A stretch of DNA of 43,515 nt from IMG/VR virus record IMGVR_UViG_3300043409_000951, positions 1-43,515 of that record; one strand, 5' to 3'. The DNA comes from a virus. The first letter of the stretch is position 1; every line of letters starts with the position of its first letter. The notes below the pieces were generated by a model. The model was not told where the DNA came from. It saw only the letters and a list, made by a program, of their open reading frames with translations, and ran no database searches. The translations under genes were made by a program, and so were the position numbers. Positions 768 through 43,515 of the stretch are shown in pieces.

Positions 768-1487
768 TCAAATCAATTCCGCTGCCTGTTCTGCCACCGC
801 TCGGATAGCCTCCAGCATGCCAGACAACTTTTCCGGAATCTGCTTCGCTCGCTGTTGGCAAACCGTGTCCCGCAGTGAGTCGTTCTCGTCCTTAAACATA
901 TCCACCTCCTCTTTACATCGCGCCAACTGCTCGCTGACTGCATCCCGTTCGGCCCGCAATTGCACAACCTCTGCCCGCGACTCTGTTCGCTCGCGTTCTG
1001 CCGCGTCCCGCTCGGCAATAATCACGCTTCTGGCTGCTAGTTGCAACCTGACATCTGCGAGTGCCGCGTCCCGCTCGGCCGTCATCTGCTGCAATTGCTT
1101 CTTGATCGCGTCGTGCCCAATTTGCCACTGACTCAACTGCACCTGCAGACTGTCCTTTTTGGCGTTTATCGCGTTGAGCTCAATCCGCCACTCCTTGCAC
1201 AACCGCTCGAAGTTATTGCGGGATGCCGTCATCTCCGCCAACTGCTCAATCAACGCCGCCGCGTTATCGCTATTGGTGTTCGCCGATTCTTTGGCCGCAA
1301 GGTATTCCACTCGCAGCGATTCCAATTGCGATACAGCTTTATCACGCTCCTCAATTGCTTTTCGCAGATTGTCGGTCACTCGCAGGTTCTGCACGTCCAA
1401 CTGATCGTGTTTTTTCCGCACATCAGTCAGCTCGACCAGTAATTCTGCGACCTGCTGTGATGCCTCGTCCTGTTCCGCTTCACTCAT
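768..1487 (-). CDS. Long coiled-coil protein
   Basis: 239 aa, almost wholly heptad-like and charged (rich in Glu, Arg, Ala, Gln, Leu), with no signal peptide or membrane segment. A coiled coil from about residue 8 to 220 is predicted by eye. No family recognised. The ATG at 1487 follows GAAAGGACAGGGCA, a good ribosome-binding site. A hairpin separates it from the upstream gene. Its position between an unknown cytoplasmic protein and an exported PEP-CTERM protein does not reveal a role; a structural scaffold or partner-binding protein is possible. Confidence 0.75.
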   Translation of the reverse strand: MSEAEQDEASQQVAELLVELTDVRKKHDQLDVQNLRVTDNLRKAIEERDKAVSQLESLRVEYLAAKESANTNSDNAAALIEQLAEMTASRNNFERLCKEWRIELNAINAKKDSLQVQLSQWQIGHDAIKKQLQQMTAERDAALADVRLQLAARSVIIAERDAAERERTESRAEVVQLRAERDAVSEQLARCKEEVDMFKDENDSLRDTVCQQRAKQIPEKLSGMLEAIRAVAEQAAELI

Positions 1488-1515
1488 TGCCCTGTCCTTT
1501 CAAGTAGTGTTGTGT

Positions 1516-1548
1516 CAGAAAGCCCCCGCCAGACGATCCAGCGGGGGA
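1516..1548 (-). terminator. Hairpin terminator after the 144-aa gene
   Basis: Perfect 7-bp GC stem (1523-1529 with 1541-1547), 11-base loop, followed on the minus strand by CTTTCT. The U-tract is short, so termination may be partial. It lies between the stop at 1555 and the next ribosome-binding site. Confidence 0.55.
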
Positions 1549-1554
1549 AGTAAA

Positions 1555-1989
1555 TCAATCGACCAGTCGCACAACTGTCGTTGCCCGCTCTGGGTAGGTC
1601 TCTGCGTCATGCACAATCGCATCGTATAGCGTCGGCAGGATCTCGCGTGTATACTGGCAACGCTCCCAGATCTCGTAGAGGTACGCACAGTTGTCCCAAG
1701 CGTCAAGCAGATCCTCGACGACGTCCTGTCGCTCACGCAGACGATTCCAAGCCCGCAGGATCTCAGAGGCTAATTCGCGTCGTGCTGAGATGCCAGACTG
1801 GCCACGCAGGTCAAGGATATAGTCAGTGCCAATCTTACGACTGACGACCGACGCCCCGCCAAATCCGGGATTGCTCAGATATGCCTCAGCTGTCTCACGC
1901 ATTGGCGACCAGCACGACCATTCGCCGGTATAGCCGTTGCAGGCTCGGTAGATTGTTGTGCTGGCGTCAATTGCGGTGAGAGTTGCCAT
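1555..1989 (-). CDS. Unknown acidic protein in promoter unit A
   Basis: 144 aa, beginning MATLTAIDAS. The start at 1989 is chosen over an in-frame ATG further up because the upstream codons run through the repeated promoter and hairpin (unit A). AAGGGATCAGGACA precedes this ATG. The protein is soluble, with an alpha-helical Trp/Arg/Glu-rich C-terminal half from about residue 65. No family recognised. Like the genes at 8715, 9016 and 9387 it has its own promoter, so it is likely expressed independently of the recombination operon upstream. Confidence 0.7.
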   Translation of the reverse strand: MATLTAIDASTTIYRACNGYTGEWSCWSPMRETAEAYLSNPGFGGASVVSRKIGTDYILDLRGQSGISARRELASEILRAWNRLRERQDVVEDLLDAWDNCAYLYEIWERCQYTREILPTLYDAIVHDAETYPERATTVVRLVD

Positions 1990-2036
1990 TGTCCTGATCC
2001 CTTGTGTGTGTTGCTGTTGTGTTTGTGTTGTCCCCG

Positions 2037-2090
2037 TCAGACTTGTGTTGTCTGATGGGGGAAGTGTAGTTTCGTTATCGGAAATTGCAA
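2037..2090 (-). promoter_or_regulatory. Repeated promoter with 5' stem-loop, copy A
   Basis: Minus strand: -35 TTGCAA (2085-2090), 16-base spacer, -10 TACACT (2063-2068), then a stem-loop at the expected transcript start: TCAGAC (2037-2042) paired with GTCTGA (2050-2055) around a 7-base loop. The spacer contains the shared core TTTCCGATAA. Loop sequence and length differ from copies B-D while the stem is kept. Drives the gene at 1555-1989. Confidence 0.8.
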
Positions 2091-2131
2091 GCCCGATTCC
2101 ACACAATTTCTGTAACAAAAAACCAAATTGC

Positions 2132-2148
2132 TGAAAACCCAGTGTTTT
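2132..2148 (-). repeat. 17-bp repeat / weak hairpin at operon end, copy 1
   Basis: TGAAAACCCAGTGTTTT is identical at 9731-9747. Each copy sits just after the stop of the preceding minus-strand gene and just before promoter unit A or D. The AAAAC/GTTTT arms and the following T-rich bases suggest a weak terminator that belongs to the repeated unit. Confidence 0.6.
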
Positions 2149-2154
2149 TACACG

Positions 2155-2250
2155 TCAATCCGGATCGAACCACAGTCGCAAAGCGATGTCTGCTGGCACG
2201 ATTGCTGCCATCACGCACGCAACCAATTCCAGAAACTCAATCCAGCCCAT
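2155..2250 (-). CDS. Small hydrophobic protein
   Basis: 31 aa, beginning MGWIEFLELV, with a hydrophobic stretch at about residues 4-24. The ATG at 2248-2250 overlaps the stop of the upstream 47-aa ORF in the arrangement ATGGGCTGGATTGA, and GGGAG lies 8 bases before it. Support comes from overlap and ribosome-binding site alone. Function unknown. Confidence 0.4.
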   Translation of the reverse strand: MGWIEFLELVACVMAAIVPADIALRLWFDPD

Positions 2251-2380
2251 TGCAGCACTCCCTGCAAAATTCATTCACTGACCACCACAGCCGCACGCAT
2301 TGCCAGACTGACCACACCACCACCGGGCAACCTATCGACCACGCCAACTCCAGACAGCGTTCTGCGATGTCACCGCTCAT
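2237..2380 (-). CDS. Small Trp/Cys-rich protein
   Basis: 47 aa, beginning MSGDIAERCL, with a Val/Trp-rich centre and three Cys near the C-terminus. The ATG overlaps the stop of the upstream 60-aa gene by 4 nt (ATGA), the coupling used throughout this genome. GAGG lies 7 bases before the start. Function unknown; too short for family assignment. Confidence 0.45.
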   Translation of the reverse strand: MSGDIAERCLELAWSIGCPVVVWSVWQCVRLWWSVNEFCRECCNGLD

Positions 2381-2559
2381 TTTGCACACCTCAACGCTTG
2401 TTCTGATTGTATTTCGGAATTTGTAAGCAGCCTGTATTGTAGCATCAAATTAGATAACTCAGCCGCTGGCCCGTTGTATACACCGCCCAGTCTTCGAGCT
2501 TCAAAAATCAATCCACGCATAGCCGCTAGCAGATCTGCTGGTACTTCAATTTCTTGCAC
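2377..2559 (-). CDS. Small unknown protein at the end of the recombination operon
   Basis: 60 aa from the GTG at 2559 (protein MQEIEVPADLL). This start is preferred over the longer frame because AAGGAGG lies 6 bases upstream, the best ribosome-binding site in the region, and it leaves an 11-base gap after the helicase stop. The protein is mostly helical and soluble. No family recognised. Confidence 0.6.
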   Translation of the reverse strand: MQEIEVPADLLAAMRGLIFEARRLGGVYNGPAAELSNLMLQYRLLTNSEIQSEQALRCAK

Positions 2560-2570
2560 AATCAACCTCC

Positions 2571-4277
2571 TTAAAACGGTACCCAATCCTCATCCATTTC
2601 CGCCGGTCCTGTCACCTCGACAGGCTCGACCATAGTTTCCGGAATCTCGTCGTCGAATTCCACCCGGACAATCTTCTGCCACTTGCCTTCAGGCACTACC
2701 CACAGCCGCGAAGCCTGTCGACATGCTCCGCGGTGCATCATCAGCAACGCTTTCACAACGGCATCCGGTACCGGTTGCACGCTTCGGCATTGCCACCAGC
2801 CGACGGCTTTCTGTCGCGCGAAACCCTCGTGCTCAACACACACCCACTCACGCACAACGGTTGCCGTCAGATTGCCATCGCCACGACTCTCCGGATAGCA
2901 GTTGTAGGTGATGCAAAGAGTCGGCACCGCGTCCGGATCTCGCTTCTTTTCGTGGAGATGCCAATCAACCGAGGTCACCACATACAGCTCCGGTTCCGGC
3001 TTGCCAGTGATCTTACTTTCGAAGTCTGCTGTGCCCTCATGGTTAAACGGGAACGCCCAGCCGCATTCAGGGCAGAAGGCAGACCGTGCCGCACACTCGA
3101 TGCTGCATTTGTCACAGACCTTCGTCCCGCCTGCTCCCTCACGCTCGACCGGCTCGCCTTTGGTCCAACCCTTGCCCCCGGTATACCGGCCGTAATCTGG
3201 AGAATCCAGACTTCCGTGCCGTGCGATATTGCCCCCGAAGTCCAACACTAGGCAATCTTCTTTGCCCTCTGCTTTTCGCAGTCCTCGCCCAACAATCTGA
3301 GCAAACAGCCCTGGCGACATTGTCGCACGCAAAACAGCCAGGGCGTCGATTCTCGGAGCATCAAAACCAGTCGTCAGCACATCGACGTTTACGCACCACC
3401 GAAGTGCCCCGTTCCGGAAGTCTGACAGAATCCGGCTGCGTGTCATCGTGTCCGTTTCGCCGGTGACAACTTCGACCGCCTCGCCCGTCATCACCTGGAG
3501 TGTAGCCTGAACCTGTTCGGCATGGGCAATGCCAGCACAAAAAACCAGAATCGACCGACGGCCAGCACATGCGTTTACAATCTCACCGCAAGCCGCCAGG
3601 ACGTTCGAATCACCAGAGAAAACCCGCTCCATTTCAGCCGCAACAAACTCGCCGCCGCGGATTGAAACCCGGCTGGTGTCGACCGTGCCATCAGCAGGTT
3701 TGTTTGTCAGCGCGGACAGATACCCTTCCGAAATCAAAGTTCCCGTCATCGACTCGTAGCAGATGCCGCCGAATAGTTTATCCTTCCCAGCAATGCTGCC
3801 CTCTCCCGTGCGGAACGGAGTAGCCGTCAAGCCAACAGCAAACAGCCGCTGATTAACTCGCCGCAAGTCCGTCAGGAACTGGCCGTACATGCTTTCCGCA
3901 TCGCCGGAAATCAAATGGGCTTCGTCGATCAGAATCAGCCCCCTCGCGCCAAAGTCCAGAGCCTTGCGGAAGACCGATTGAATCCCCGCACAAATCACTG
4001 CCGAATCAAAGTCATGTCGACGAAGACCCGCCGAATTCAGTCCGACCTGCACGCCTGCCATCGCCGCTATCTTCTCAGCGTTTTGAACGAGCAACTCTTT
4101 CCGATGGGCCAGACACAGCACCCTTTGGTTGAACTCCAGAGCCTGCCGAATCAGCATTCCAATCACCACCGATTTCCCGGCCCCTGTCGGCAGTACGATC
4201 AACGGATTCCCTCGCCCTGATGCCATCCATTCCCACGCCGCATGATTTGCCGCGTCCTGATAATATCTCGCCTGCAC
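2571..4277 (-). CDS. Superfamily 2 DNA helicase (DEAH)
   Basis: 568 aa. ATP-dependent helicase/translocase. Walker A PTGAGKS at about residues 30-36, DEAH at 118-121, TATP at 151-154, and a motif VI-like QIVGRGLRK further on. A Cys cluster (CDKC...CPEC) after the helicase core could bind zinc. GTG at 4277 is taken as the start: AGAAAGGG lies 6 bases upstream, and this start keeps the gene clear of the terminator at 4294. It follows the DUF669, Sak4-like and RusA genes, a set often seen together in phage recombination modules. A role in recombination-dependent replication or branch processing is likely. The exact substrate cannot be read from the sequence. Confidence 0.88.
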   Translation of the reverse strand: MQARYYQDAANHAAWEWMASGRGNPLIVLPTGAGKSVVIGMLIRQALEFNQRVLCLAHRKELLVQNAEKIAAMAGVQVGLNSAGLRRHDFDSAVICAGIQSVFRKALDFGARGLILIDEAHLISGDAESMYGQFLTDLRRVNQRLFAVGLTATPFRTGEGSIAGKDKLFGGICYESMTGTLISEGYLSALTNKPADGTVDTSRVSIRGGEFVAAEMERVFSGDSNVLAACGEIVNACAGRRSILVFCAGIAHAEQVQATLQVMTGEAVEVVTGETDTMTRSRILSDFRNGALRWCVNVDVLTTGFDAPRIDALAVLRATMSPGLFAQIVGRGLRKAEGKEDCLVLDFGGNIARHGSLDSPDYGRYTGGKGWTKGEPVEREGAGGTKVCDKCSIECAARSAFCPECGWAFPFNHEGTADFESKITGKPEPELYVVTSVDWHLHEKKRDPDAVPTLCITYNCYPESRGDGNLTATVVREWVCVEHEGFARQKAVGWWQCRSVQPVPDAVVKALLMMHRGACRQASRLWVVPEGKWQKIVRVEFDDEIPETMVEPVEVTGPAEMDEDWVPF

Positions 4278-4293
4278 CTGTATCCCTTTCTGC

Positions 4294-4328
4294 AAAAAAC
4301 AGCCCGGCAGTGTGTGACCACTGCCGGG
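4294..4328 (-). terminator. Strong intrinsic terminator after the DUF669 gene
   Basis: Perfect 10-bp stem CCCGGCAGTG/CACTGCCGGG (4303-4312 with 4319-4328), 6-base loop, followed on the minus strand by CTGTTTTTT (4294-4299). It lies between the DUF669 stop and the helicase ribosome-binding site, so helicase expression needs read-through, antitermination or a nearby promoter. Confidence 0.85.
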
Positions 4329-4356
4329 AATGATTATCGAAGTCTGACAGAACCAA

Positions 4357-4836
4357 CTATGCGAACGGATTCGGCTTCGATGTCTGACCGCTGAACCCGT
4401 CAGGGCTTGCGGTTGCTGTCACCGTGACAGGAGCCACAACGCCAGTCTGTTTCGGCTTGTAGCCCTTCACCTCGTTCCGCAGTTTGCCCTGGTACTCTGA
4501 CACATCCACAACCGCCGTCAGTGTCCTGTTGTGCAGGTCATCGCTGTTGCGAGGCGTCAACACATTCACCGCCCGACAAATAGCCGACAGCGTGCCCTGT
4601 GCAATCTTCGTCGCCTTTTCGGACTTGTTCCACAGATTCAACCGATCATACAGCTTCTTGCCCTTGAACGGCCCCTCCACAACCTGAAGCACCATGTTCA
4701 GCAGATGCCCATCGCCCTTCGCTGTCGGCTTACTTTCTGACTCCACGATAATCACCTGATACTCGCCCTTCGGCACCGCCGATGCTGGCTCGTTCGGTTC
4801 AACTTTTGCCGCATCAAAACCCATCAAATCAGCCAT
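4357..4836 (-). CDS. DUF669 family protein (probable ssDNA-binding protein)
   Basis: 159 aa. Matches by eye the DUF669 family of phage recombination modules: an N-terminal MADLMGFDAAKVEP-type start, a YQVIIVESESKPT strand, the GPFKGKKLYDRLNLW motif and an SAICRAVNVL segment. Family members commonly sit beside Sak4/AAA ATPases and are thought to act as single-strand-binding or recombination accessory proteins. The ATG overlaps the stop of the ATPase gene by 8 nt (ATGGCTGA), with GGAGGTGACCA upstream. The C-terminus is a low-complexity linker ending in SKPNPFA. The strong terminator follows directly. Confidence 0.82.
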   Translation of the reverse strand: MADLMGFDAAKVEPNEPASAVPKGEYQVIIVESESKPTAKGDGHLLNMVLQVVEGPFKGKKLYDRLNLWNKSEKATKIAQGTLSAICRAVNVLTPRNSDDLHNRTLTAVVDVSEYQGKLRNEVKGYKPKQTGVVAPVTVTATASPDGFSGQTSKPNPFA

Positions 4837-5632
4837 TGGTCACCTCCGTTTTTTTGCTTGAACCATCAACCACAATGCCACCGATATTTTCCGCCGGAGC
4901 AGCTTGTGTGAAATACTGAGCATACGCAGCCCATGAAAAGTCGATCGTCTCAGGCATTGTCAGCCTGTTTTTCGCCAACGCTCCCGGCGTCTCTGTGCAG
5001 CGTATCAGACGTTCGCCAGATCCTCCGGCGATTATCCGCTCTTTACCGAAGCCTTCGTCCTGCTTTCGAGTGTGAACACGATAGGACGCAAACAGCACTT
5101 CATCGCACCATTCCTGAAGCGTTGCCGCTGCCGTCTCATGCAATGCAGGCTGATACCGGTCGTAAGAATCCGTCATCGGATCGGTGTACTTTTTGACGGC
5201 TGTGTGGGCCAGCAAAATCACACCCAGTTTCCGCTCAGCCTCAGTCCGCAGCCAGTCCAGCATTGTCAGGATTTTGTCCCAATATGCCATCGCTGATTTG
5301 TAGCCCGCACCATAGCCGATGTCCCCGATCGTCGCCTTCCCGGCTTCACGCGCCACCTCGGCATGAATCAAACCCTCAAGCCAGTCCACGCTGTCAATCG
5401 CTACCCACCTGAAATCGTGCTTTTGCGTGGCAAGAAATGTCAACGCTTCCATCACCTGCTCAAGCCGGATCAGGTGTTCCGTTTTGGCCACGTCGATGTC
5501 GTTCAATCCGTCCTCCAGATTGAGAAACAAAACGTCCGGAGCCTGTGCAGCCCACGACGATTTCCCGATGCCATGCGTGCCGTACAACAGCACCCTTCGC
5601 GGTACGATCTTCTTGCCTCGTGTAATCTTCAC
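4829..5632 (-). CDS. Sak4-like RecA-fold recombination ATPase
   Basis: 267 aa from a GTG that overlaps the RusA stop as GTGA, with AGAAGGGG upstream. Walker A GTHGIGKSS at residues 18-26, then FLNLEDGLNDID. A Walker B-like WVAIDSVDWLE near residue 80 and ILLAHTAVKK further on match the phage AAA_24/Sak4 group of single-strand annealing or strand-exchange ATPases. It stands directly upstream of the DUF669 protein, its usual partner. The predicted role is RecA-like recombination during replication. The longer upstream frame is rejected because it lies within the RusA gene. Confidence 0.85.
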   Translation of the reverse strand: MKITRGKKIVPRRVLLYGTHGIGKSSWAAQAPDVLFLNLEDGLNDIDVAKTEHLIRLEQVMEALTFLATQKHDFRWVAIDSVDWLEGLIHAEVAREAGKATIGDIGYGAGYKSAMAYWDKILTMLDWLRTEAERKLGVILLAHTAVKKYTDPMTDSYDRYQPALHETAAATLQEWCDEVLFASYRVHTRKQDEGFGKERIIAGGSGERLIRCTETPGALAKNRLTMPETIDFSWAAYAQYFTQAAPAENIGGIVVDGSSKKTEVTNG

Positions 5633-6054
5633 GGCGTGTAATCCCCTTCTGTTGTGTCGGTAACAAAAACCACCGTGGAGCCCTGCTGGCCCCACACTTT
5701 TCGCACAATCAATTCCCAAACGACTGCATCATCTGGCCAGCACTCACTCAAGCCGTCGAGTATCGCTTTTGCGATATTATCGCTGTCTGGCTTTTGCGTG
5801 TGTGGCTGGCCATCATGCTTCAGCTTTTTCGCTTTCGTCCAACTTTTGGGCATTTCGAAAACGCATCCAATTGTGACCCGGACCGGCCCTTCCAGCTTTG
5901 GCTTATTCGCTGACAATTTTGCGGTGATACTCCGGTAAACAACACCAGGAGACTTCTGCGGAACATAGTGCCTGACGCCCCATTTTGTTCGAACGCTACG
6001 TGCCCTCGGCATTCCCGCAGGCTGACCGAAGATTGTGATGTTCCACGTCGTCAT
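5629..6054 (-). CDS. rusA: RusA-like Holliday junction resolvase
   Basis: 141 aa. Endonuclease that cuts four-way junctions. The family signature is clear: QKPDSDNIAKAILDGL at about residues 87-102, with Asp90, Asp92 and Asp100 as candidate metal ligands, followed by the conserved DD at 108-109. The N-terminus GQPAGMPRARS is also typical. The ATG overlaps the previous stop as ATGA. It acts with the Sak4-like ATPase, DUF669 protein and helicase downstream, probably resolving recombination or packaging intermediates. Length is close to E. coli RusA (120 aa). Confidence 0.9.
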   Translation of the reverse strand: MTTWNITIFGQPAGMPRARSVRTKWGVRHYVPQKSPGVVYRSITAKLSANKPKLEGPVRVTIGCVFEMPKSWTKAKKLKHDGQPHTQKPDSDNIAKAILDGLSECWPDDAVVWELIVRKVWGQQGSTVVFVTDTTEGDYTP

Positions 6055-7034
6055 GCTGTCGCGTCCTCCAGTGCTTCGCGAACCATTCCACGCCAATCGA
6101 CGTCGCCCTGCATCTGCAACAGCTCACGCAGTGCAGACTGAAGTTCCTCGAACCTTCTCAGCCTGTCGCCGACTGACAAAACAAGTGGTTTTCGCTCTTC
6201 TTCGACCTGAGTATTCAACGGCAGAATATCGGCCTCGATTGCCGCCTCTGTCGCGGACAATTCCGCCTCATGATTGTCCCACATTTTGCGGACACGTTCG
6301 ATGAGACTTTGTTTGGCTTCTGCTGCCTGTCGATCCTGTTCGACCTTTGCTGCAGCCGCTTCTGTGCGGTTTCTTTCCGCAAGTAACTCCGCAATGCTTT
6401 CTGCTTCAACTCGTCGCCTCTCGACTAATGCCTCAGCCTCTCGGCGGTCGCTCTCTGCTTTCGCACGTCGCAGTTCTTCCAGTTCCGCACGTTCCGCTGC
6501 TCGCTGTGCTTCTTCCTGTCGTCTGGCGTTCTCTGCTTTCAACCGCTCGAAGGTAAACGACGTCCATTCCAGCGCTGTCAGTGACCCCGCTTCGCTCTCC
6601 GGAAACACCCCGGCATTCTCCGGCCATGACATTCGCCGAACCGCCACACGTTCGACTCGCTCGGCCTCCGCTGCCTGCCGTTGCTGCTCTTCGTACAACG
6701 CTTCCTGATGCTTCAAGTGAATCTCAACCGGCTCAATGATGCTGCCGATTTCCTTCGCGACTGCGTTGACGGTGTCGATCCATTTCTTCGCTTCTTCGTT
6801 CAACAGCTTTCGCCGCTTGTCGATGCTGGTCCGCAACTTCACGACGGCTTTCCGGCCCTCGACGACTTTCTTCAGGCCATGCACTTCAACCGTCAATTCT
6901 TTCAGCGGTCGCACCGTTGCCAGTGCATCAGCCTTGACCTGATGCAACTCTGTCAACTGCTGTTCCCTCGATGTTTCCACCACTGGAGTTTCAGCCTGTT
7001 CCACGATTCCGAATGCGTCTTCAATGTCGTTCAT
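6051..7034 (-). CDS. Coiled-coil protein of the recombination operon
   Basis: 327 aa, dominated by coiled coil: helical Lys/Glu-rich segments at about residues 40-130 and a long Arg/Glu/Ala-rich coil at about 165-260. The position, between csrA and rusA, recalls the helical DUF1351-type proteins of other phage recombination modules, but I cannot confirm that family. The ATG overlaps the csrA stop (ATGA). AGAAAGGGACAGTAGA precedes it and contains an ANGGA core that the neighbouring CsrA might bind. No catalytic motif seen. Confidence 0.75.
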   Translation of the reverse strand: MNDIEDAFGIVEQAETPVVETSREQQLTELHQVKADALATVRPLKELTVEVHGLKKVVEGRKAVVKLRTSIDKRRKLLNEEAKKWIDTVNAVAKEIGSIIEPVEIHLKHQEALYEEQQRQAAEAERVERVAVRRMSWPENAGVFPESEAGSLTALEWTSFTFERLKAENARRQEEAQRAAERAELEELRRAKAESDRREAEALVERRRVEAESIAELLAERNRTEAAAAKVEQDRQAAEAKQSLIERVRKMWDNHEAELSATEAAIEADILPLNTQVEEERKPLVLSVGDRLRRFEELQSALRELLQMQGDVDWRGMVREALEDATA

Positions 7035-7231
7035 TCTACTGTCCCTTTCTGTTGTGTTTTTGACTTATCAAACAACTCACTACGCAACACTTTCACCCCA
7101 TTTGGGGCGTGAATCGCAATCCGAAACGTCGAGCCGTCTTTTGAGACGACTTTCACGCGGATGTCGTCACCTATGCAAATTTCTTCTAAAGCCTTTCGGC
7201 CCAATACCAACCAGCCTGATTGATCAGTCAT
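7031..7231 (-). CDS. csrA: Phage-encoded CsrA/RsmA family RNA-binding regulator
   Basis: 66 aa. It aligns along its full length with bacterial CsrA: LVLGRKALEEICIGDDI corresponds to LILTRRVGETLMIGDEV, and HAPNGVKVLRSELFDK to NAPKEVSVHREEIYQR. Arg12 and Arg50 correspond to the RNA-contacting Arg6 and Arg44 of E. coli CsrA, and the IGDD turn is kept. CsrA dimers bind GGA in leaders and block or alter translation. The ATG at 7231 overlaps the previous stop as ATGA, with GGGGTGAAATT upstream. The targets could be phage leaders that carry AGGGA-type Shine-Dalgarno sites, or host mRNAs (inference). Confidence 0.88.
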   Translation of the reverse strand: MTDQSGWLVLGRKALEEICIGDDIRVKVVSKDGSTFRIAIHAPNGVKVLRSELFDKSKTQQKGTVE

Positions 7232-7677
7232 AATTTCACCCCATGCCCGCCAACGCCCGTCAGTGCTTCCATGTTGCACACCGGGATTTCCCAAGCGGCG
7301 TACCGGCCTGCCGATCGTCGCTCGTGCTCCTCCGGTGACCATCCTCGGCGAATCTCCGCAGCCCGTTCCGCAATCTCAGCGGGTGTGGGATCAGTGATGC
7401 GAAGTGACACCAATTCCCGCCGCATCTGCCAGACGCTCCGGCCTGTCAGATTGTCCTCGACCATCAGTGCGATGTCCTCACCCTGTTGCGGCGTGACCGG
7501 TCTTGCCCAACGCCACTCACTCACCGGCTCGCCGTCTGGCGTATCTGCCAAGACTGTCACCCGCGTTTTTCCATCGTGCATAATTCCGACCACATAGCCG
7601 CAAGCCCACGTCGCTTCAGGCCTGCCGTCCTTCTCGGCTGATGCCAGCACATAGTCGCCAATTTGTGTGTCGTTCAC
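7228..7677 (-). CDS. Unknown protein upstream of csrA
   Basis: 149 aa from GTG at 7677 (MNDTQIGDYVL), chosen because AAAGGGA lies 8 bases upstream and the longer frame enters the structured leader. The N-terminal half looks beta-rich (ACGYVVGIMHDGKTRVTVL). The C-terminal half is helical and contains IAERAAEIRRGWSPEEHERR, then a short Trp/Pro/Cys tail. No family recognised. It starts the csrA-rusA-Sak4 operon and is coupled to csrA by a 4-nt overlap. Confidence 0.7.
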   Translation of the reverse strand: MNDTQIGDYVLASAEKDGRPEATWACGYVVGIMHDGKTRVTVLADTPDGEPVSEWRWARPVTPQQGEDIALMVEDNLTGRSVWQMRRELVSLRITDPTPAEIAERAAEIRRGWSPEEHERRSAGRYAAWEIPVCNMEALTGVGGHGVKL

Positions 7678-7702
7678 TTCTATCTTCCCTTTCTGTTGTG
7701 TC

Positions 7703-7800
7703 AAAAACACCCCGCACAGCCGCATGATGCAGCGTAAAGGATCAGCTTACCAGTCAGCACCTTGCCGACATTGCACGCTATCCATGTGCTGTGTGCGGGG
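7703..7800 (-). promoter_or_regulatory. Structured leader ending in a terminator-like stem
   Basis: Minus-strand RNA would form a closing 9-bp stem (7792-7800 with 7710-7718) and directly inside it a second stem GTGCTG/CAGCAC (7786-7791 with 7755-7760). Smaller hairpins follow and then a run of five T (7703-7707). It lies just before the first gene of the csrA operon and after the small DNA-binding gene. It may be a terminator, an attenuator or a small RNA. Confidence 0.5.
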
Positions 7801-7811
7801 AGTGTTGTACC

Positions 7812-7970
7812 TTACCGTGCCATACCCCGCTCGACCGCTGTCAGAATCGCCGCCTGTCGTGTCGGCCCGATCTTGTCAAGCCGATCCATCAGCGGCTTCG
7901 GGATGCGGACCAGACAGGTCACTGCATCCGGCTTGTGTTTACGCGGTCTTCCGACCTTTTGGGTTGTCAT
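7812..7970 (-). CDS. Small DNA-binding protein (AT-hook / ribbon-helix-helix-like)
   Basis: 52 aa, MTTQKVGRPRKHKPD. It has an AT-hook-like GRPRK near the N-terminus, then a strand and two helices (VTCLVRIPKPLMDRLDKIG, RQAAILTAVERGMAR) in the order of a ribbon-helix-helix domain. The ATG at 7970 is chosen because AGGA lies about 8 bases upstream; an ATG four codons earlier has no such site. A regulator of the small-gene region, or of the operon it precedes, is plausible (inference). Confidence 0.65.
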   Translation of the reverse strand: MTTQKVGRPRKHKPDAVTCLVRIPKPLMDRLDKIGPTRQAAILTAVERGMAR

Positions 7971-8005
7971 TGAAATCATCCTGATTGTGTTGTGAAAATT
8001 GCCCG

Positions 8006-8260
8006 TCAGTCTACGCACATTGCCACCTGCATTGCGCCCGCTGCCGCCAGTAGCATGACCTCGCGTTTGTTGTCGCGATCCAATAACACGCCATCAAATT
8101 CGGTACGTAACTCCCACACCCCATTTTCTTTGTAAATCTCCATCCTGTCCCCATCAGCCAGATCTGCCACGTACTTTTGACCTTCGACCCGGAATTCCGT
8201 TGTGTGCTCAATCAACCCGGTTGCGGTCAGGATTGTTGTCTTGATTTTTGTTGGTTGCAT
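8006..8260 (-). CDS. Small unknown protein
   Basis: 84 aa, MQPTKIKTTILTATG. Beta-rich N-terminal two thirds (EFRVEGQKYVADLADGDRMEIYK), a helical Ala-rich end and a final Cys. The start is fixed by the leader ACACAAGGGGAACACACA directly before the ATG, the same leader type as in the promoter units. No signal peptide. No family recognised. Confidence 0.65.
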   Translation of the reverse strand: MQPTKIKTTILTATGLIEHTTEFRVEGQKYVADLADGDRMEIYKENGVWELRTEFDGVLLDRDNKREVMLLAAAGAMQVAMCVD

Positions 8261-8310
8261 TGTGTGTTCCCCTTGTGTGAAAGATTGAAAAGAGTCATCC
8301 CGAATGGCAC

Positions 8311-8571
8311 TCAATACACCCTGCGTTCATATGCCCGGATTGCCGAAGTGAGACCTCTGTGTTTTCCTGGCGTCGCCGTTGCCCACAGCTTCTGCCCGTT
8401 GTAACAAGTCGCAGAGCATTCCTTAACCGCCTGCTCGGCTGACTCAGTGTCGACGATTTCGACGATCTCACTGTAACCTGACTCAAAGTCGTTTTTCGGG
8501 TTTCGCTCCGCCCGCATTGCGGACTGGTTTGCTGCGTTGAAGCCGTTGCGAATGACGTAGTATGTGTTCAT
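8311..8571 (-). CDS. Small unknown protein
   Basis: 86 aa, MNTYYVIRNGFNAAN, preceded by ACACAGGACACACA. Contains EIVEIVDTESAEQAVKE and a short Cys pair region, and looks like a small alpha/beta fold. No family recognised. The longer frame is rejected because it runs back through two hairpins. It has no promoter of the A-D type directly upstream. The gap 8572-8714 holds only hairpins. Confidence 0.6.
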   Translation of the reverse strand: MNTYYVIRNGFNAANQSAMRAERNPKNDFESGYSEIVEIVDTESAEQAVKECSATCYNGQKLWATATPGKHRGLTSAIRAYERRVY

Positions 8572-8602
8572 TGTGTGTCCTGTGTGCAAGATTGAAAATG
8601 AA

Positions 8603-8622
8603 CCCCCGCCGGCTGACGGGGG
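8603..8622 (-). terminator. GC hairpin upstream of the 86-aa gene
   Basis: Stem CCCCCG (8603-8608) with CGGGGG (8617-8622), 8-base loop, followed on the minus strand by TTCATTTTC. Weak as a terminator. Together with the hairpin at 8677 it fills the gap between two small genes. Confidence 0.35.
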
Positions 8623-8670
8623 GAAGTGTTGTCTATTTGCCCAGTCGAATCGCCAGCCACTTATCGCTAT

Positions 8671-8699
8671 CAAAACCCCCGCCAGCCAGTCTGGCGGGG
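8671..8699 (-). terminator. Intrinsic terminator of promoter unit B
   Basis: Perfect 9-bp stem CCCCGCCAG/CTGGCGGGG (8677-8685 with 8691-8699), 5-base loop, followed on the minus strand by GTTTTG. It lies 15 bases after the stop of the 50-aa gene and closes promoter unit B. Confidence 0.75.
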
Positions 8700-8714
8700 A
8701 TGTCGTTTTGTTTG

Positions 8715-8867
8715 TCAGCCCTGCGCCTTGGTTTCTGCCACCACCTGACGCCACTGTGCGATGCTCAGCCCCACACCACGGAACATTCTCCGCAGCATCT
8801 GTGCGTCCTTTTCGTCGTTACCGGTCAACCACGGCTGGATCATGTTTCGCACTGCGTCGGTCGTCAT
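8715..8867 (-). CDS. Small unknown protein in promoter unit B
   Basis: 50 aa, MTTDAVRNMIQPWL, helical, with a GVGLSIAQWRQVV segment that could be a small helix-turn-helix. The ATG at 8867 follows AGGGGGCGAACG, and the gene sits neatly between promoter copy B and the terminator at 8671. That context makes it a real gene despite its length. Function unknown. Confidence 0.65.
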   Translation of the reverse strand: MTTDAVRNMIQPWLTGNDEKDAQMLRRMFRGVGLSIAQWRQVVAETKAQG

Positions 8868-8900
8868 CGTTCGCCCCCTGTGTGTGTTGTGTTGTGTGTG

Positions 8901-8951
8901 TCAGACTCGTGTCTGATGAGTGAAGTATAATTTCATTATCGGAAATTGCAA
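8901..8951 (-). promoter_or_regulatory. Repeated promoter with 5' stem-loop, copy B
   Basis: Minus strand: -35 TTGCAA (8946-8951), 16-base spacer, -10 TATACT (8924-8929), 7 bases, then stem TCAGAC/GTCTGA (8901-8906, 8911-8916) with loop ACGA. The stem would be the 5' end of the mRNA. Drives the 50-aa gene. Confidence 0.85.
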
Positions 8952-8972
8952 GGGCTGTTCTGAATAATTTCT

Positions 8973-9002
8973 GAAAATAAAATCCCCCCGGTTTCCCGGG
9001 GG
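8973..9002 (-). terminator. Intrinsic terminator of promoter unit C
   Basis: 7-bp GC stem (8985-8991 with 8996-9002) followed on the minus strand by ATTTTATTTTC. It lies directly after the stop of the 74-aa gene and directly before promoter copy B. Confidence 0.75.
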
Positions 9003-9015
9003 AATTTGGTCTGCC

Positions 9016-9240
9016 TCAGACCGCCGCAACCTGCAATGTTTCCCAGACGTTATCGGACAGCTTTCGATATTGCCCTTCGCCCATTATGGTGTCATAGGCG
9101 GTTTCCATCGGCATTCCGGAACTTACCAGCGTGTTAATACACAGCCCGATGATTGCGTTCCGTGTAGCCTGGTCGTTCTTCATTTCAGCGCCGTTTTCAA
9201 ACAAGAATTTTGCGGCCCGGTTGAGAAGTTCTGTGTTCAT
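9016..9240 (-). CDS. Small unknown protein in promoter unit C
   Basis: 74 aa, MNTELLNRAAKFLFENG, helical and soluble, ending QVAAV. Start supported by the leader CACAAGGGGACA before the ATG. Flanked by promoter copy C and a terminator, so it is a single-gene transcription unit. No family recognised; the layout suggests an early accessory gene. Confidence 0.7.
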   Translation of the reverse strand: MNTELLNRAAKFLFENGAEMKNDQATRNAIIGLCINTLVSSGMPMETAYDTIMGEGQYRKLSDNVWETLQVAAV

Positions 9241-9268
9241 TGTCCTGTCCCCTTGTGTGTGTTGTGTG

Positions 9269-9319
9269 TCAGACTCGTGTCTGACAGGTGAATCATAATT
9301 TCATTATCGGAAATTGCAA
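9269..9319 (-). promoter_or_regulatory. Repeated promoter with 5' stem-loop, copy C
   Basis: -35 TTGCAA (9314-9319), 16-base spacer, -10 TATGAT (9292-9297), stem TCAGAC/GTCTGA (9269-9274, 9279-9284) with loop ACGA. Same geometry as copy B. Drives the 74-aa gene. Confidence 0.85.
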
Positions 9320-9342
9320 GGGCTGAATCTGAACAATTTCAG

Positions 9343-9374
9343 AAAATAAAATTCCCCCGGGTTTCCCGGGGGAA
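9343..9374 (-). terminator. Intrinsic terminator of promoter unit D
   Basis: Perfect 10-bp stem TTCCCCCGGG/CCCGGGGGAA (9352-9361 with 9365-9374), 3-base loop, followed on the minus strand by TTTTATTTT. It closes the 73-aa gene and lies just upstream of promoter copy C. Confidence 0.85.
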
Positions 9375-9386
9375 AGTGTCAGGTTG

Positions 9387-9608
9387 TTATTTCACGAAAT
9401 CCACAGCCTGCCCGTCTGATGCAATCACTCGCCACCCCTTGCGGGTTGCCTTCAGCTTACTGCTGTAACCCTTCTCGGTTGCCAGCCAGAGTCGAAAGTC
9501 TTCAGCGTGAAACTTTGTGCGTTCGCCCAGGTTGCTGTAAGTGTGAACCAAACTAACGGCGTTCAGGTCGGTTGCGACGATTGCGACTGGGTTGATTGTG
9601 TTGAGCAT
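9387..9608 (-). CDS. Small unknown protein in promoter unit D
   Basis: 73 aa, MLNTINPVAIVATDLNA, with a basic GYSSKLKATRKGWRVI segment and ending VDFVK. Leader ACACAAGGGGAATCACA before the ATG. Own promoter (copy D) and terminator. Function unknown. The basic central part could contact nucleic acid, but no motif is clear. Confidence 0.7.
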   Translation of the reverse strand: MLNTINPVAIVATDLNAVSLVHTYSNLGERTKFHAEDFRLWLATEKGYSSKLKATRKGWRVIASDGQAVDFVK

Positions 9609-9638
9609 TGTGATTCCCCTTGTGTGTTGTGTTGTGTG

Positions 9639-9689
9639 TCAGACTCGTGTCTGATGGTAGGAGTATAATTTCATTATCGGAAATTACAA
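9639..9689 (-). promoter_or_regulatory. Repeated promoter with 5' stem-loop, copy D
   Basis: -35 TTGTAA (9684-9689), 16-base spacer, -10 TATACT (9662-9667), stem TCAGAC/GTCTGA (9639-9644, 9649-9654) with loop ACGA. Upstream it shares a further stretch with copy A, including the 17-bp repeat at 9731. Confidence 0.85.
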
Positions 9690-9730
9690 GACTGAATCTG
9701 AATAATTTTCGTAACAAAAATACAGGTTGA

Positions 9731-9747
9731 TGAAAACCCAGTGTTTT
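9731..9747 (-). repeat. 17-bp repeat / weak hairpin at operon end, copy 2
   Basis: Identical to 2132-2148. It overlaps the last base of the stop of the glycosyltransferase/methyltransferase gene and ends the tail-glycosylation operon before promoter unit D. Confidence 0.6.
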
Positions 9748-10964
9748 CACTCGCCTTCCGCCTTCGTTCTCCACGCAATTAAATCATCATACCGGCCTGC
9801 AACGCCGCGAAAGTCCTCAATGGTCCAGCCATCAGCGCGGAACCACTCGACAGCTCGTTCGTCCTGAAGATCTTCGACAACGTAAACACCGCCCGGACGC
9901 AGGGACCACCACAACGCCCGCACACCTGCAACCTGATCGGGTAGAGTGTGGCTGCCGTCGTCAATAATCAGATCCACCGGGGATTGCTGTCGCAGCCTGT
10001 CCCGCAACGGCCCGAAGTCTGGCGAACTCATTCGCACGCAATCCAGCCCCGCAGGCGGATTCTGATCGGCCCCAATAATTCGCCCGCCCGGCGCAACATC
10101 CTGCCAGGCTCGAAGACTTGCCCCGTTCAAGACGCCAATCTCAACAACGCTCTGCGGTTGCACGTCTCGCCAAATCCGATCATAGAACGCCCCGTATGTG
10201 TGGAGTGTAACCTTATCGCTCCCGTGCCGCCTCAGGGCTTCACTGACCGGCCCTGATTGCTTCTGCAATTTGTGTGCGACATAATCCCCGGACGCCTGCC
10301 CCGATGCCGCAATAGCCCGGTCGATTGCCCGCAGGTTGATTGGGATTCTGTTCGCGTCGATCCCGCCACGGCGAACAGCCCGATATCTTCGCAGCGTTGA
10401 GCTCGCCGCGTCGCCGTGCCGCACCCAGATCCAGCCGACGTCATTCGAGACAACCCGGAAAGGCCACTGCTTATGGTAGAGCCAGTGCCCCATATCATGC
10501 GGGGACCGATTGCCGTCAGTGACGATTGACACAAACTGATTGCCCGGATGCGTCAGCAAATGGGCGGTGCTGCGCCACCAAGTGTAACCGGTCGGCCAGA
10601 TCAATGCGATTTCGCCGGATGCAGGAGCTGCCCCATAAACCCGCTCGCAAAAGTCGGCTGACAGCACGTCATCGTCGTCAATTCGCGAAACCACCTTACG
10701 ACCCTGCGGCAGTGCGTAGTCCGCGCCGTACACTTGCCACGTGTCGTGCCAGACCGGGACAACTTCGCAGCCTGTTGCCTGGTACATGCTTAGCCGCGTT
10801 TGTGCGTGAGGATCTTTTGGCGACTGTGCGAGATGGATGATCGGCTTCCGCGTCTGATATCGCAGTGCGGGGAAACTTGTGTGCTCTGTGATTGCCAATC
10901 GCCGTTGGCTCAAATCCGGATCGGTGAACACGCTCTGAATCACAATGCACTGCGGTACCGTCAT
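9747..10964 (-). CDS. Glycosyltransferase-like / SAM-methyltransferase two-domain protein
   Basis: 405 aa. The N-terminal half resembles putative rhamnosyl/glycosyltransferases: VVSRIDDDDVLSADF around residues 91-105 supplies the Asp-rich metal/nucleotide-sugar motif. The C-terminal domain from about residue 240 is a class I methyltransferase of the CmcI/macrocin type: VEIGVLNGASL (274-284) as motif I, GADQNP with Asp300, and LIIDDGSHTL. The ATG overlaps the upstream glycosyltransferase stop as ATGA. The two coupled genes follow the distal tail genes, so a virion protein or the host surface may be glycosylated and the sugar methylated (inference). Confidence 0.75.
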   Translation of the reverse strand: MTVPQCIVIQSVFTDPDLSQRRLAITEHTSFPALRYQTRKPIIHLAQSPKDPHAQTRLSMYQATGCEVVPVWHDTWQVYGADYALPQGRKVVSRIDDDDVLSADFCERVYGAAPASGEIALIWPTGYTWWRSTAHLLTHPGNQFVSIVTDGNRSPHDMGHWLYHKQWPFRVVSNDVGWIWVRHGDAASSTLRRYRAVRRGGIDANRIPINLRAIDRAIAASGQASGDYVAHKLQKQSGPVSEALRRHGSDKVTLHTYGAFYDRIWRDVQPQSVVEIGVLNGASLRAWQDVAPGGRIIGADQNPPAGLDCVRMSSPDFGPLRDRLRQQSPVDLIIDDGSHTLPDQVAGVRALWWSLRPGGVYVVEDLQDERAVEWFRADGWTIEDFRGVAGRYDDLIAWRTKAEGE

Positions 10965-20786: not shown

Positions 20787-21905
20787 TCACTTCTGCAAAG
20801 ACTCAAGGCCATCATCAATCCGACGGCTTCGAATGTACTGCTCTTCTGACACACTCAGAAGACTTCTGTTCTGATTGAATTCCGCTTTGTACTTCGCGTT
20901 TGGATCGGCTGGTGGCTCTGGTGCCGCATCCAAAACGCTTCCGCGCTTGCCCATCAGATCTTTCAGCGCCGCCTGAGTTTCGGCAACGCTAAAGCCAGCA
21001 TCGACGAAAGCGTTAAACTTCTCGCCAACTCCAGCCAAGTCACACAGTGCCCTGATCTTCTTGCAGCGGTCACGCTCAATTGCCGCAAGATCAGCGGTAG
21101 GAGTCGCGACAACCACCGGTTCAACCACAGCACTCAAATCAGCCACCGGCGTTTCTGGAACCTCGCTCGGTTGTTCAGTTTCTCCAGGCATGGCCTGTCC
21201 TTTACTCGAAAAATATCGGTCCAGAAACGCTGAGATACGACCTCGGACCACATCAGGTTCCGCATCTCCAAAATATGAACTCAGCAAGGCTGTTGCCTGT
21301 GCTGGAAGATCTCGTAAGTCGGCATTCAGCGAAAAGAATCCGCCCCGTGTTGCTGCTGGCTCGTCGACAACGTCACCGGCTTTGATTGCAGAAAACCGCA
21401 TCGGCCACATCGACCGCTCTTCTTTCGACTTTCCAGAATTCAACTTCTCGAATTGTGCCAAGTCGCCACGGTCCAACTTTGTCGCCAGACTCACGCCAAA
21501 CGATTCAGGATCGCTTTCTGCCAGATCCATGACATAGTTGCCAAGATCACCCTGCGGACTCGTGAAAGCAGCGTCTGCAATGTGCAAATCGCCTCGCAGC
21601 GTATCGCCTTCAATTCGCACGTTTTGCCATCGCCCCAAATAGCTGCCCATGCCATCGGCTGACATATTCGGGTGCGTGAATCGGGCTTTCAGCCCGTTTC
21701 GGCTTTGGTTCGCGAACTGATACGCCTGATCCAACGTCTTCGCATCAACAGTCCATGGACGCGATTCAGCGTCATTCAAGTCGCCAACCTGCATCAGGGA
21801 CGCACCAAAAATCACGTTGGCTTTTCGGTCTACCCTAACAGGTCGCTCGGCCGTTGTATCTGTCCGGAAAAATCCCGGATCGGTTGCAGTTTTAAGCTGA
21901 TGCAT
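20787..21905 (-). CDS. Prohead protease fused to scaffold
   Basis: 372 aa. The N-terminal 200 residues look like phage prohead proteases of the Mu gpI/S49 or U35-like kinds: KARFTHPNMSADGMGSYLG with a candidate catalytic His, GDLHIADAA, and ESFGVSLATKL with candidate Ser. A Pro/Val/Glu linker at about 240-275 leads to a helical end (NAKYKAEFNQNRSLLSV), typical of a scaffold domain. The ATG lies 14 nt inside the portal gene, preceded by GGAGACGCAAA. Confidence 0.82.
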   Translation of the reverse strand: MHQLKTATDPGFFRTDTTAERPVRVDRKANVIFGASLMQVGDLNDAESRPWTVDAKTLDQAYQFANQSRNGLKARFTHPNMSADGMGSYLGRWQNVRIEGDTLRGDLHIADAAFTSPQGDLGNYVMDLAESDPESFGVSLATKLDRGDLAQFEKLNSGKSKEERSMWPMRFSAIKAGDVVDEPAATRGGFFSLNADLRDLPAQATALLSSYFGDAEPDVVRGRISAFLDRYFSSKGQAMPGETEQPSEVPETPVADLSAVVEPVVVATPTADLAAIERDRCKKIRALCDLAGVGEKFNAFVDAGFSVAETQAALKDLMGKRGSVLDAAPEPPADPNAKYKAEFNQNRSLLSVSEEQYIRSRRIDDGLESLQK

Positions 21906-23484
21906 TTTGCGTCTCCATTGGTTTTGCGGTTGGCTCTTGTGTTGTGGCTTGCAACCCCAGCCCTGTCCGGATCTTATTCAATCGGGCTTCCATCTGAGCT
22001 TTCGCAATCTGCTCACGCTCAATCTGAACCAGTGTCTCATCAAAGTCTCTGCCACGGCTCGCAAGGCTTTCCGTTTGCGTCGTAAGCCCAGCACCGATTG
22101 CCAGAATATCCGCGTTGACTTCCTTTTCCGGATCGACCCACGGCCATCCTGGTGGAATCCATGCGTGTTGCAAAAAGTGATCCCGGTTTTCTTCATACTT
22201 CACCGGATCAACGCTCAACTTGCCCTGCACTACGCACTGATCAATGAACCTTGCCCACACTTTTCGGTAAACCGATTCGATGTCTAACTGCTGCCAAATA
22301 CGGAACGTGATTCGCCCGTCAATCAGGGCCAATCTGCCACCGCTAAAATTGTTCGTGAACTGCTTTGCCAGCAATTCGTAAGGATATCGCAACGCTGCCG
22401 CTACACCATGCAGTGACCACTCGACATACGGCCCCAGCGTTGTGCCAGGCCTTGCCGGATCGCTGAACTGAATTCCCTCGCCTTCTGCCAGGTATTGAAT
22501 GCTGCCAGGTGCCAGATCTTCAAGATTGGAACGTGATCGCCCCTGCTCCGCCAGAATCACAGGATCGGTCACACCAGTGACAAACGCCCCATGGCAAGCG
22601 GCAACCTGCTCAGCAACCAAATTGGCGTAGACAAATTCTTTCAGGTCTTTCAGTTTTGCCATGGCAGGAGCCATCCACGGAACGCCGCGAAGCTGTCCCG
22701 GTGTTTGCTCCTCGTAGCAATGCAGAAGATCATCAAGACTGACCTCTTCTTCTTCCAGACTGTAAGCGTAGCTGTCATTCGGCAATGTCTTCGTGACATA
22801 CGCTGCAACTGGCTTTCCGCCTGCGTCTAGCTTAATGCCCAGCCTGCGGCGTTCGTTGCCGTTGTTTGTGCCGTAGCTGTAGAGTGGAATGCGTTGCGGG
22901 TGAATGACCTGAACCGTCATCGTGACCGGTTTCGTCATGTCGTCATCGTCGGCCATGTGCAGCCACGATTCCCCGAAAATTCCGTTACACCGTTCCAGCA
23001 TTCGCTGCTTCAAATAGAAGTCCTGATGTTCGGACCACTTGGCAAAAAGCCATTCACTCATGACGCGAAATTCTTCGGCCTGTGCTGGCGTAAGGATGCC
23101 ACGTTCGGCCTGTACTCGGCATTGTGGGCGAATTCCTGTCCCGATAACGTTGTCAACCCGCCCATTGATTGCAGAAGCGGCGTAAACGTCTGTTCGATAC
23201 AGATCGCTTGCCCTGTCGATCAGCGTCTCAAGCTCCGATTGAATCGCATCGTTTGCCGTCAGCTTGCTGGCCATCCATCGCTCACCGCGAAGGCGGTCAT
23301 GGTCGGCCGCTTCCCACGCAGTAAACCGGCTTGCGGCTCGCTCGGACATTGCCACTCGGATCTCGTGGTCGATTCGTGCACGAACTCGACGTGCCGCCAG
23401 TGCAGGCGATACGGCGGAGATAACTCGATCAATGCGAGTGAGTCTCTTCGCGAAGTCAACACGTTTTTTAAGACTGTCAGACAT
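21892..23484 (-). CDS. Portal protein (lambda gpB type)
   Basis: 530 aa, close to lambda gpB in length. Shows the lambda-family portal pattern: an N-terminal Arg-rich helix, the ASAINGRVDNVIGTGIRPQ segment, LERCNGIFGESWLHM, VIHPQRIPLYSYG, and a C-terminal region with the WIPPGWPWVDPEKEV motif. It forms the dodecameric DNA channel. The start overlaps the gpW-like gene by 8 nt with GAGGTTCCGCA upstream. Confidence 0.92.
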   Translation of the reverse strand: MSDSLKKRVDFAKRLTRIDRVISAVSPALAARRVRARIDHEIRVAMSERAASRFTAWEAADHDRLRGERWMASKLTANDAIQSELETLIDRASDLYRTDVYAASAINGRVDNVIGTGIRPQCRVQAERGILTPAQAEEFRVMSEWLFAKWSEHQDFYLKQRMLERCNGIFGESWLHMADDDDMTKPVTMTVQVIHPQRIPLYSYGTNNGNERRRLGIKLDAGGKPVAAYVTKTLPNDSYAYSLEEEEVSLDDLLHCYEEQTPGQLRGVPWMAPAMAKLKDLKEFVYANLVAEQVAACHGAFVTGVTDPVILAEQGRSRSNLEDLAPGSIQYLAEGEGIQFSDPARPGTTLGPYVEWSLHGVAAALRYPYELLAKQFTNNFSGGRLALIDGRITFRIWQQLDIESVYRKVWARFIDQCVVQGKLSVDPVKYEENRDHFLQHAWIPPGWPWVDPEKEVNADILAIGAGLTTQTESLASRGRDFDETLVQIEREQIAKAQMEARLNKIRTGLGLQATTQEPTAKPMETQNASA

Positions 23485-23713
23485 TGCGGAACCTCACAAG
23501 ATTCCTACCGGCTGCAAGGCCGCCGGACGATTGCCTTCGCAGGTCTGAAATTCTGGAATCCAGTTCCGCAAGCCACGAGGATGTCGGTTCTTTTGTTACG
23601 ACCTGCCCATCGACCGAGTAACTGACTACAGGACTTCCAGACAGCAACGCTCCCTCGACTTTGTCGCGGATTTGCTCGAATAGTGCCAGACGTTCGGAAG
23701 CGGATTTTGCCAT
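23477..23713 (-). CDS. gpW-like head-tail joining protein
   Basis: 78 aa from the ATG at 23713. Helical N-terminus, then the SYSVDGQVVTKEPTSSW turn and a second helix, as in lambda gpW (68 aa), and in lambda order between terminase and portal. An ATG three codons upstream is an alternative start; neither has a strong ribosome-binding site. Confidence 0.7.
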   Translation of the reverse strand: MAKSASERLALFEQIRDKVEGALLSGSPVVSYSVDGQVVTKEPTSSWLAELDSRISDLRRQSSGGLAAGRNLVRFRNV

Positions 23714-23777
23714 GACAATCATATTGCCATGTTGTCAGCAAATTGGAACCCGCCGATTCCAATGCTTTGGAAACAAC

Positions 23778-23975
23778 TTAATACTCCCGCCGCACGACAG
23801 TCTGAAATCTGTTGCCACATTGACAAGCCCGATACTGTGTGGCGAAACCTCCAGCCGTCGCTGTATGCTGCACGCTCGCGAATCGACCACATGACGGACA
23901 CAAGCCATGCCCCGGAACCTGATGCCATTGCGTGTAAGCTCGCTTCGTGTAACCCGGTTGCTGTAATGGCTTCAT
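23778..23975 (-). CDS. Zinc-ribbon protein downstream of the terminase gene
   Basis: 65 aa. CPSCG and, about 30 residues later, CQCG frame a zinc ribbon; a basic, aromatic tail follows. The layout recalls Ogr/Delta-type late regulators and the Mu Com translational activator, though no single family fits clearly. The ATG overlaps the terminase stop as ATGA, with AAAGGTTGGAA upstream. Nucleic-acid binding is likely. Confidence 0.7.
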   Translation of the reverse strand: MKPLQQPGYTKRAYTQWHQVPGHGLCPSCGRFASVQHTATAGGFATQYRACQCGNRFQTVVRREY

Positions 23976-43383: not shown

Positions 43384-43515
43384 AGCGCCCCCCCCCCCTC
43401 TCAGTGTGTGTAACCAAAAACCCGCCGCCAAAATATCCCAGCCCCAACAATAGCCGCCACAATCAACGCCGGAACCACAGACGGCTCTGGCACATAGGTG
43501 CCGCGAGCGCTGCCG
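43277..43515. repeat. Terminal direct repeat, right copy (circular-contig overlap)
   Basis: Second copy of the terminal repeat, one base longer than the left copy because of an 11-C tract. Removing one copy gives a circle of about 43,276-43,277 bases. Confidence 0.95.
43401..43515 (-). CDS. PEP-CTERM protein, 3' fragment (right copy)
   Basis: Duplicate of the last 37 or so codons of the gene at 124-735, including the PEP triplet, the hydrophobic segment and the stop. It is cut by the right edge of the window. Not a separate gene. Confidence 0.85.
   Translation of the reverse strand, partial: GSARGTYVPEPSVVPALIVAAIVGAGIFWRRVFGYTH

Follow-up and report, generated by a model that had tools for sequence, protein, structure and literature searches.

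Lambdoid phages carry morons, extra genes with a promoter and a terminator of their own. In T4-like phages, promoter early stem loops (PeSLs) are described as composite intergenic promoter-terminator motifs that are dense where genes shuffle and are proposed mediators of that shuffling (Arbiol 2010 and Comeau 2014, as summarised in PMC4503421). Cluster K mycobacteriophages have a repeated start-associated sequence (SAS) before non-structural genes (PMC3203893), and in the extended form (ESAS) a SigA-like promoter and an inverted repeat whose spacer varies are present upstream of it (PMC11373665); the SAS is 13 bp long and the imperfect repeat 15-17 bp (PMC3203893; PMC11373665). The ompA, papA and aprE mRNAs possess a stabilising hairpin that lies at the 5' end or very close to it, and an unstructured leader and a Shine-Dalgarno (SD) sequence come next (works listed in PMC3997798). 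Here we describe a repeated intergenic element in IMG/VR virus record IMGVR_UViG_3300043409_000951 (the window; the whole stretch of 43,515 bases, with long open reading frames [ORFs] nearly all on the minus strand), in which four near-identical promoters each precede a short stem-loop and a small ORF. We consider it likely that each of the four represents one portable module for expressing exchanged small ORFs; the cassette-like exchange of these ORFs is a more important result than the association of promoter and stem.

Four copies of a probable expression module and their relatives

The promoters all lie on the minus strand: promoter A (-35 TTGCAA at 2090-2085, -10 TACACT at 2068-2063, predicted +1 A at 2056), promoter B (TTGCAA 8951-8946, TATACT 8929-8924, A at 8917), promoter C (TTGCAA 9319-9314, TATGAT 9297-9292, G at 9285) and promoter D (TTGTAA 9689-9684, TATACT 9667-9662, A at 9655). 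The predicted +1 is the seventh base after the -10 box and is a purine in all four. A sequence-only reading of this DNA had listed the same copies, which match base for base, and its four proposed transcription starts coincide with the +1 predicted from the -10 spacing. The -35 consensus is TTGYAA (TTGCAA in three copies, TTGTAA in D), and in 4/4 the spacer measures exactly 16 bases and contains TTTCCGATAA without a change. Four occurrences of TTTCCGATAAYGAAAYTA were found in the window, compared with none for the reversed control even when two mismatches were allowed, and whole units align mutually over 105-140 bp (BLAST, E = 7e-13 to 1e-35); the four-copy pattern is therefore not due to chance. 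A profile search of the window found no fifth copy. Promoters B, C and D reached the consensus cut-off of a promoter scan tool, and A to D have the features of sigma-70-type promoters, with activity predicted from these features.

The earlier picture of a promoter plus stem proved too narrow: terminator and leader also belong to the unit, and the ORFs that follow are swapped as cassettes. From 5' to 3' the module consists of a terminator or stem, an AT-rich element, the promoter, the hairpin, a CA-rich leader, a GGG(G) SD sequence and the ATG. The AT-rich stretch upstream of TTGYAA includes TTCAGA in most copies, the discriminator between the -10 box and the hairpin ends in a purine, and the CA-rich leader is unstructured up to the GGG(G) ribosome site. 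All four modules are on the minus strand. Module D (9606..9749) comprises an AT stem-loop, TGAAAAC-N5-GTTTTCA (9731-9749), a TTCAGATTC element, the hairpin (9654-9639), the leader, an AAGGGG SD and an ATG at 9608. Module C (9238..9376) has an intrinsic terminator at 9374-9352 (TTCCCCCGGGAAACCCGGGGGAA TTTTATTTTC), a 7-bp hairpin (9285-9268), CA leader, SD and an ATG at 9240; module B (8865..9008) has a similar terminator (9007-8980), then the hairpin (8916-8901), CA leader, SD and an ATG at 8867. Module A (1987..2149) has an AT stem (2132-2148), a hairpin at 2055-2037 with a 7-base loop and CCCC/GGGG flanks, the leader, a AAGGGATCAGG SD and an ATG at 1989. Modules A and D thus carry TGAAAAC/GTTTTCA, or a near version of it, in place of the terminator; in B and C, and likewise in the sister clade described below, an intrinsic terminator and a promoter are joined in one conserved intergenic unit. 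After gene B there is a further GC-rich, terminator-like stem-loop (8677..8699, minus strand), with a similar stretch in relatives L080, L088, L108 and L123. Other genes of the window (1480-1554 and 8560-8714) are preceded by a GC-rich stem-loop and, shortly after it, a CA-rich leader and SD, and no promoter is evident in between; similar promoterless starts occur in contigs G5 (37987), G7 (4838 and 5155) and G4 (1012). These gene starts may be a version of the module without a promoter.

Pattern scans identified seven other IMG/VR contigs with the element, which together with the window form a close clade of 16 distinct module-plus-ORF units; where these contigs have the window's replication proteins, identity is 93-99%. 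A sister clade was found by a scan with the Sak4-like protein of the window, its Sak4 proteins being mostly 60-71% identical to the query. This clade contributed 22 diverged array units with the same order of parts (profile search, best E 7.7e-13; another scan added more), in which the promoter core, terminator, leader, SD and a TTTCCGA box are kept. The modules of L087 and L108 directly follow a homologue of the window gene at 9747-10964, as module D does. In the product of this gene a rhamnosyltransferase-like domain is fused to a methyltransferase domain; both clades have the gene conserved immediately upstream of their cassette array. Neither the promoter pattern nor the helicase/methylase protein had a match in GTDB genomes, the array DNA had no blastn match in 50,697 phage records (cultured phages), and Rfam gave no match. 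A broad CTTGYAATTTCCGATA scan mainly retrieved unrelated contigs, which were set aside, being without the -10 spacing, hairpin and leader.

The persistence of the box suggests a second reading, compatible with the module explanation, to which we give appreciable but lesser credence: coordination may come from a regulator, or from promoter recognition, that reads TTTCCGA within the 16-bp spacer, with the hairpin incidental to regulation. Despite wide divergence elsewhere, TTTCCGA is present in 38/38 array-type modules of both clades, a constancy partly built in as the word was itself the pattern of some scans, and the 16-bp spacer is kept in 36/38. The first five sister-clade records were retrieved by the profile and not by the TTTCCGA word, which favours this reading, whereas the word served as the query for later copies. 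Similarly, some copies have a palindrome around the box (ATTTC-N7-GAAAT; CTTTC-N7-GAAAG), but its right half varies freely among copies. Strong early promoters of phages, those of T4 among them, moreover commonly have an extended consensus.

Exchange of small ORFs between modules

The four cassette genes, all on the minus strand, are different small ORFs, as the sequence-only reading had proposed, and searches of Pfam, PHROGs and PADLOC assigned no function to any of them. Cassette gene A (1555..1989; 144 amino acids) is replaced by other genes at this locus in G3, G4, G5 and G7, so that five phages differ in the gene they have here. Identity between relatives is 60-100% over the nearest 160 bp upstream, in the module, and falls to about 50% past the ATG. 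For gene B (8715..8867; 50 amino acids), a 153-bp copy in L123, a member of the sister clade, matches exactly from 5 bp before the ATG through the stop codon towards the terminator (100% DNA identity), compared with 60% identity for the module and 67.5% for the Sak4 gene. Two further relatives, L108 and L159, share an ORF whose identity sets in 16 bp ahead of the ATG and ends exactly at the stop codon, while their modules are 70% identical. Gene C (9016..9240; 74 amino acids) had no relatives by scan; a 43% identical homologue turned up later in L155, with a different promoter and an unrelated 5' hairpin. Gene D (9387..9608; 73 amino acids) has orthologues in G5, G1 and G2 that are 96-97% identical under different modules; over three phages the gene is 95-96% identical and the modules 66-76% alike, one being without the hairpin. 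The predicted structure of the gene D product has a mean predicted local distance difference test score of 65.5, with residues 1-25 below 50.

Over both clades, 27 ORF families were counted in 39 units, and array size ranges from one unit in G4 to three in the window, four in G5 and at least four in G2. By alignment, then, ORFs and modules are shown to have different histories, and the regulatory module is real and well supported, with demonstrable ORF exchange.

In the module explanation, the terminator or AT stem would close the preceding gene, and each module would insulate and drive one small accessory ORF, with ORFs gained, lost and swapped between modules. Swapping would probably occur by homologous recombination in the conserved flanks, using the phage's own Sak4-type annealing protein. 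Three minus-strand recombination genes of the window, encoding a DUF669/SSB-like protein (4357-4836), the Sak4-like annealing protein (4829-5632) and a RusA resolvase (5629-6054), are candidate machinery for module-mediated exchange; we infer the module to be the crossover homology, and Sak4, the SSB-like protein and RusA to be the agents. A dedicated system of cassette exchange in the group seems improbable to us. Its docking sites would be the constant ends, on one side the module as far as the ATG and on the other the sequence past the stop codon; through these, phages would replace bare ORFs in one another, start codon to stop codon, and any incoming ORF could be expressed thanks to the constant hairpin or leader at the 5' end.

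The hairpin at the predicted 5' end

In all four window copies the stem TCAGAC/GTCTGA follows the +1, with the loop ACGA in B, C and D and AACACAA in A; hairpin C gains a seventh pair (G-C), so that stems are of 6-7 bp, starting at +1 or +2. As a bare palindrome with two mismatches the stem is not beyond chance (4 found versus 1.7 expected in the window), and it is notable because its position after the promoter is fixed. A hairpin starts at +1/+2 in 14/16 close-clade units, compared with 13.5% of window purine positions, a contrast that is not a probability as the units are related. All 16 units have a purine at the predicted +1, the closeness of the stem to the 5' end being predicted from the -10 spacing. 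Among these units loops of 4, 7 and 10 bases occur with the stem kept, which, together with the frequency at +1/+2 and a single U-G wobble, speaks for selection on pairing.

Different hairpins occupy the same place elsewhere in the group. The sister clade has a second promoter class, TTGACRC...GTAMTATC, in which 11/11 distinct leaders have an equally spaced hairpin of another sequence, the inner stem being GTCAC/GTGAC in some and CGCA/TGCG in others; in L155 a third stem, TCGCGG/CCGCGA, lies ahead of the gene C homologue. At these other promoters only replacement of the whole stem was seen. The second class also has DNA palindromes (L104 3089-3140, L108 6410-6460, L087, L153 and others): at the -35 box, with matching changes, GACAC-N3-GTGTC in some and GACGC-N3-GCGTC in another, and over the -10 box GATAG-N5-CTATC. 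These look like an operator.

In this lineage the transcript would begin at the purine 7 bases past the -10 box, and the hairpin would therefore leave 0-1 unpaired 5' bases. RppH of B. subtilis requires at least two (PMC3997798). The hairpin would most likely protect the message against decay that depends on its 5' end (RppH with RNase E or RNase J), giving every ORF the same transcript start whatever the gene; for such a protective RNA 5'-end structure we put the chances at about even. A terminator was rejected, as no U-run follows the stem, and the stem is too short for an RNase III site to be likely.

Several observations weigh against a central place for the hairpin, or against the module explanation more broadly. 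No hairpin was found in the 22 sister-clade array units, and it is missing from two of the 16 close-clade units, which keep the promoter; it is therefore dispensable, and the 14/16 versus 0/22 distribution makes it a lineage-specific addition. Conservation of the stem in relatives, which had been proposed as a check, thus holds for the close clade and fails in the sister-clade array. The TCAGAC stem has no pair changed on both sides and one U-G wobble only. The claim that the same stem with a different loop suggests selected pairing accordingly does not amount to covariation, since the stem letters are identical. The second-class hairpins have unremarkable fold z-scores (-1.3 to 0.1). In class A and in the second class of the sister clade CCC precedes and GGG follows the stem, so that the palindrome would extend into untranscribed DNA. 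Promoter A falls below the scan tool's consensus cut-off, and the partly built-in constancy of TTTCCGA counts here as well. In L126 (5777-5825), possibly a distant start region, GTCAGACACAA stands at the place of the 5' arm with no 3' arm (a weak match, E 0.49), and the hairpin may have arisen later than its 5' arm. What stands of the initial interpretation is one promoter family with a stem at the predicted 5' end; covariation, and the hairpin as the conserved core, do not. As each copy also has a different small gene behind it, the coordinated regulon then suggested is plausible.

The nearly invariant stem letters, and the 89% identity of copies B and C over 119 bp, would also be expected if the similarity meant no more than that one intergenic region was recently duplicated, with the hairpin serving no function. 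We think this unlikely: the module persists between clades with about 65-70% identity in their Sak4 proteins, with terminator, box, SD and position kept, the stem is constant while loops differ, and other promoters of the group repeatedly have hairpins unrelated to this one. Less likely still is that the perfect +1 palindrome of all four copies is a DNA operator through which a phage repressor or activator dimer switches the regulon jointly over the start site, a reading in line with the CCCC...GGGG extension of class A into untranscribed DNA and with the repression proposed for ESAS (PMC11373665), as half-site spacing varies in otherwise alike modules, which a rigid dimer is not expected to tolerate, two close-clade modules without the palindrome keep the promoter and TTTCCGATA, and TTTCCGA, common to all units, is the better operator candidate. 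Of the two roles first offered for the stem, a 5'-end RNA structure or a dimer operator, the variable loops (4, 7 and 10 bases) and the unrelated 5' hairpins at other promoters favour the former.

Genome context and comparison with described systems

The terminal 239 bases of the window overlap directly (1-238 and 43277-43515; 99.6% identical, differing in a C run), which makes a circular or circularly permuted genome probable. No tRNA was found in the window. No integrase was seen among the window proteins scanned, and a lytic life style is likely on this ground. TerL and portal (21892-25939) are 97-98% identical with those of G4, whereas the portal is only 24-25% identical in G5 (L064-L066), G1 (L071) and G2 (L070), while replication proteins are 93-99% identical where present; the structural block appears to have been swapped. 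The window also encodes a PAPS-reductase-like protein (38347-39195), which matches PHROG 424 and PADLOC SspD (E 6e-18) and is possibly linked to DNA phosphorothioation, and a ThyX thymidylate synthase (39883-40563).

The units described here differ from morons in that all belong to one module family, with several in tandem. Like ESAS, they are repeated and combine a promoter with an inverted repeat ahead of a gene; the palindrome is here short, perfect and at the predicted +1. A GGGATAGGAGCCC SAS at the start codon with a 15-17-bp imperfect repeat was not present in any leader read; what these have is an SD of the GGG(G) type and a perfect stem of 6-7 bp. The likeness to the ompA, papA and aprE mRNAs lies in a hairpin at the predicted 5' end, an unstructured leader and an SD; here the stem is short (6-7 bp) and repeated within a phage module, and stabilisation is putative. 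Lineages with and without the hairpin offer a natural experiment on the effect of a 5'-end hairpin on phage mRNA.

Like PeSLs, the present units join a terminator to a promoter, and they are repeated and tied to exchanged small genes. They differ from PeSLs in their promoter sequence, in extending as far as the ATG with a hairpin at the 5' end, a CA-rich leader and an SD, and in belonging to an unrelated phage of about 43 kb with a portal of PHROG 21 type. Portal and terminase match phage types other than T4-like, and no sequence relation to PeSL or ESAS was seen. The promoter box, SD and terminator ends provide a sequence handle for the accessory ORFs traded by these phages, and such ORFs are the usual place to seek anti-host and anti-defence functions. 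The promoter-terminator gene shuffling of T4-like phages is in this way extended to an unrelated and uncultured group of 43-kb phages.

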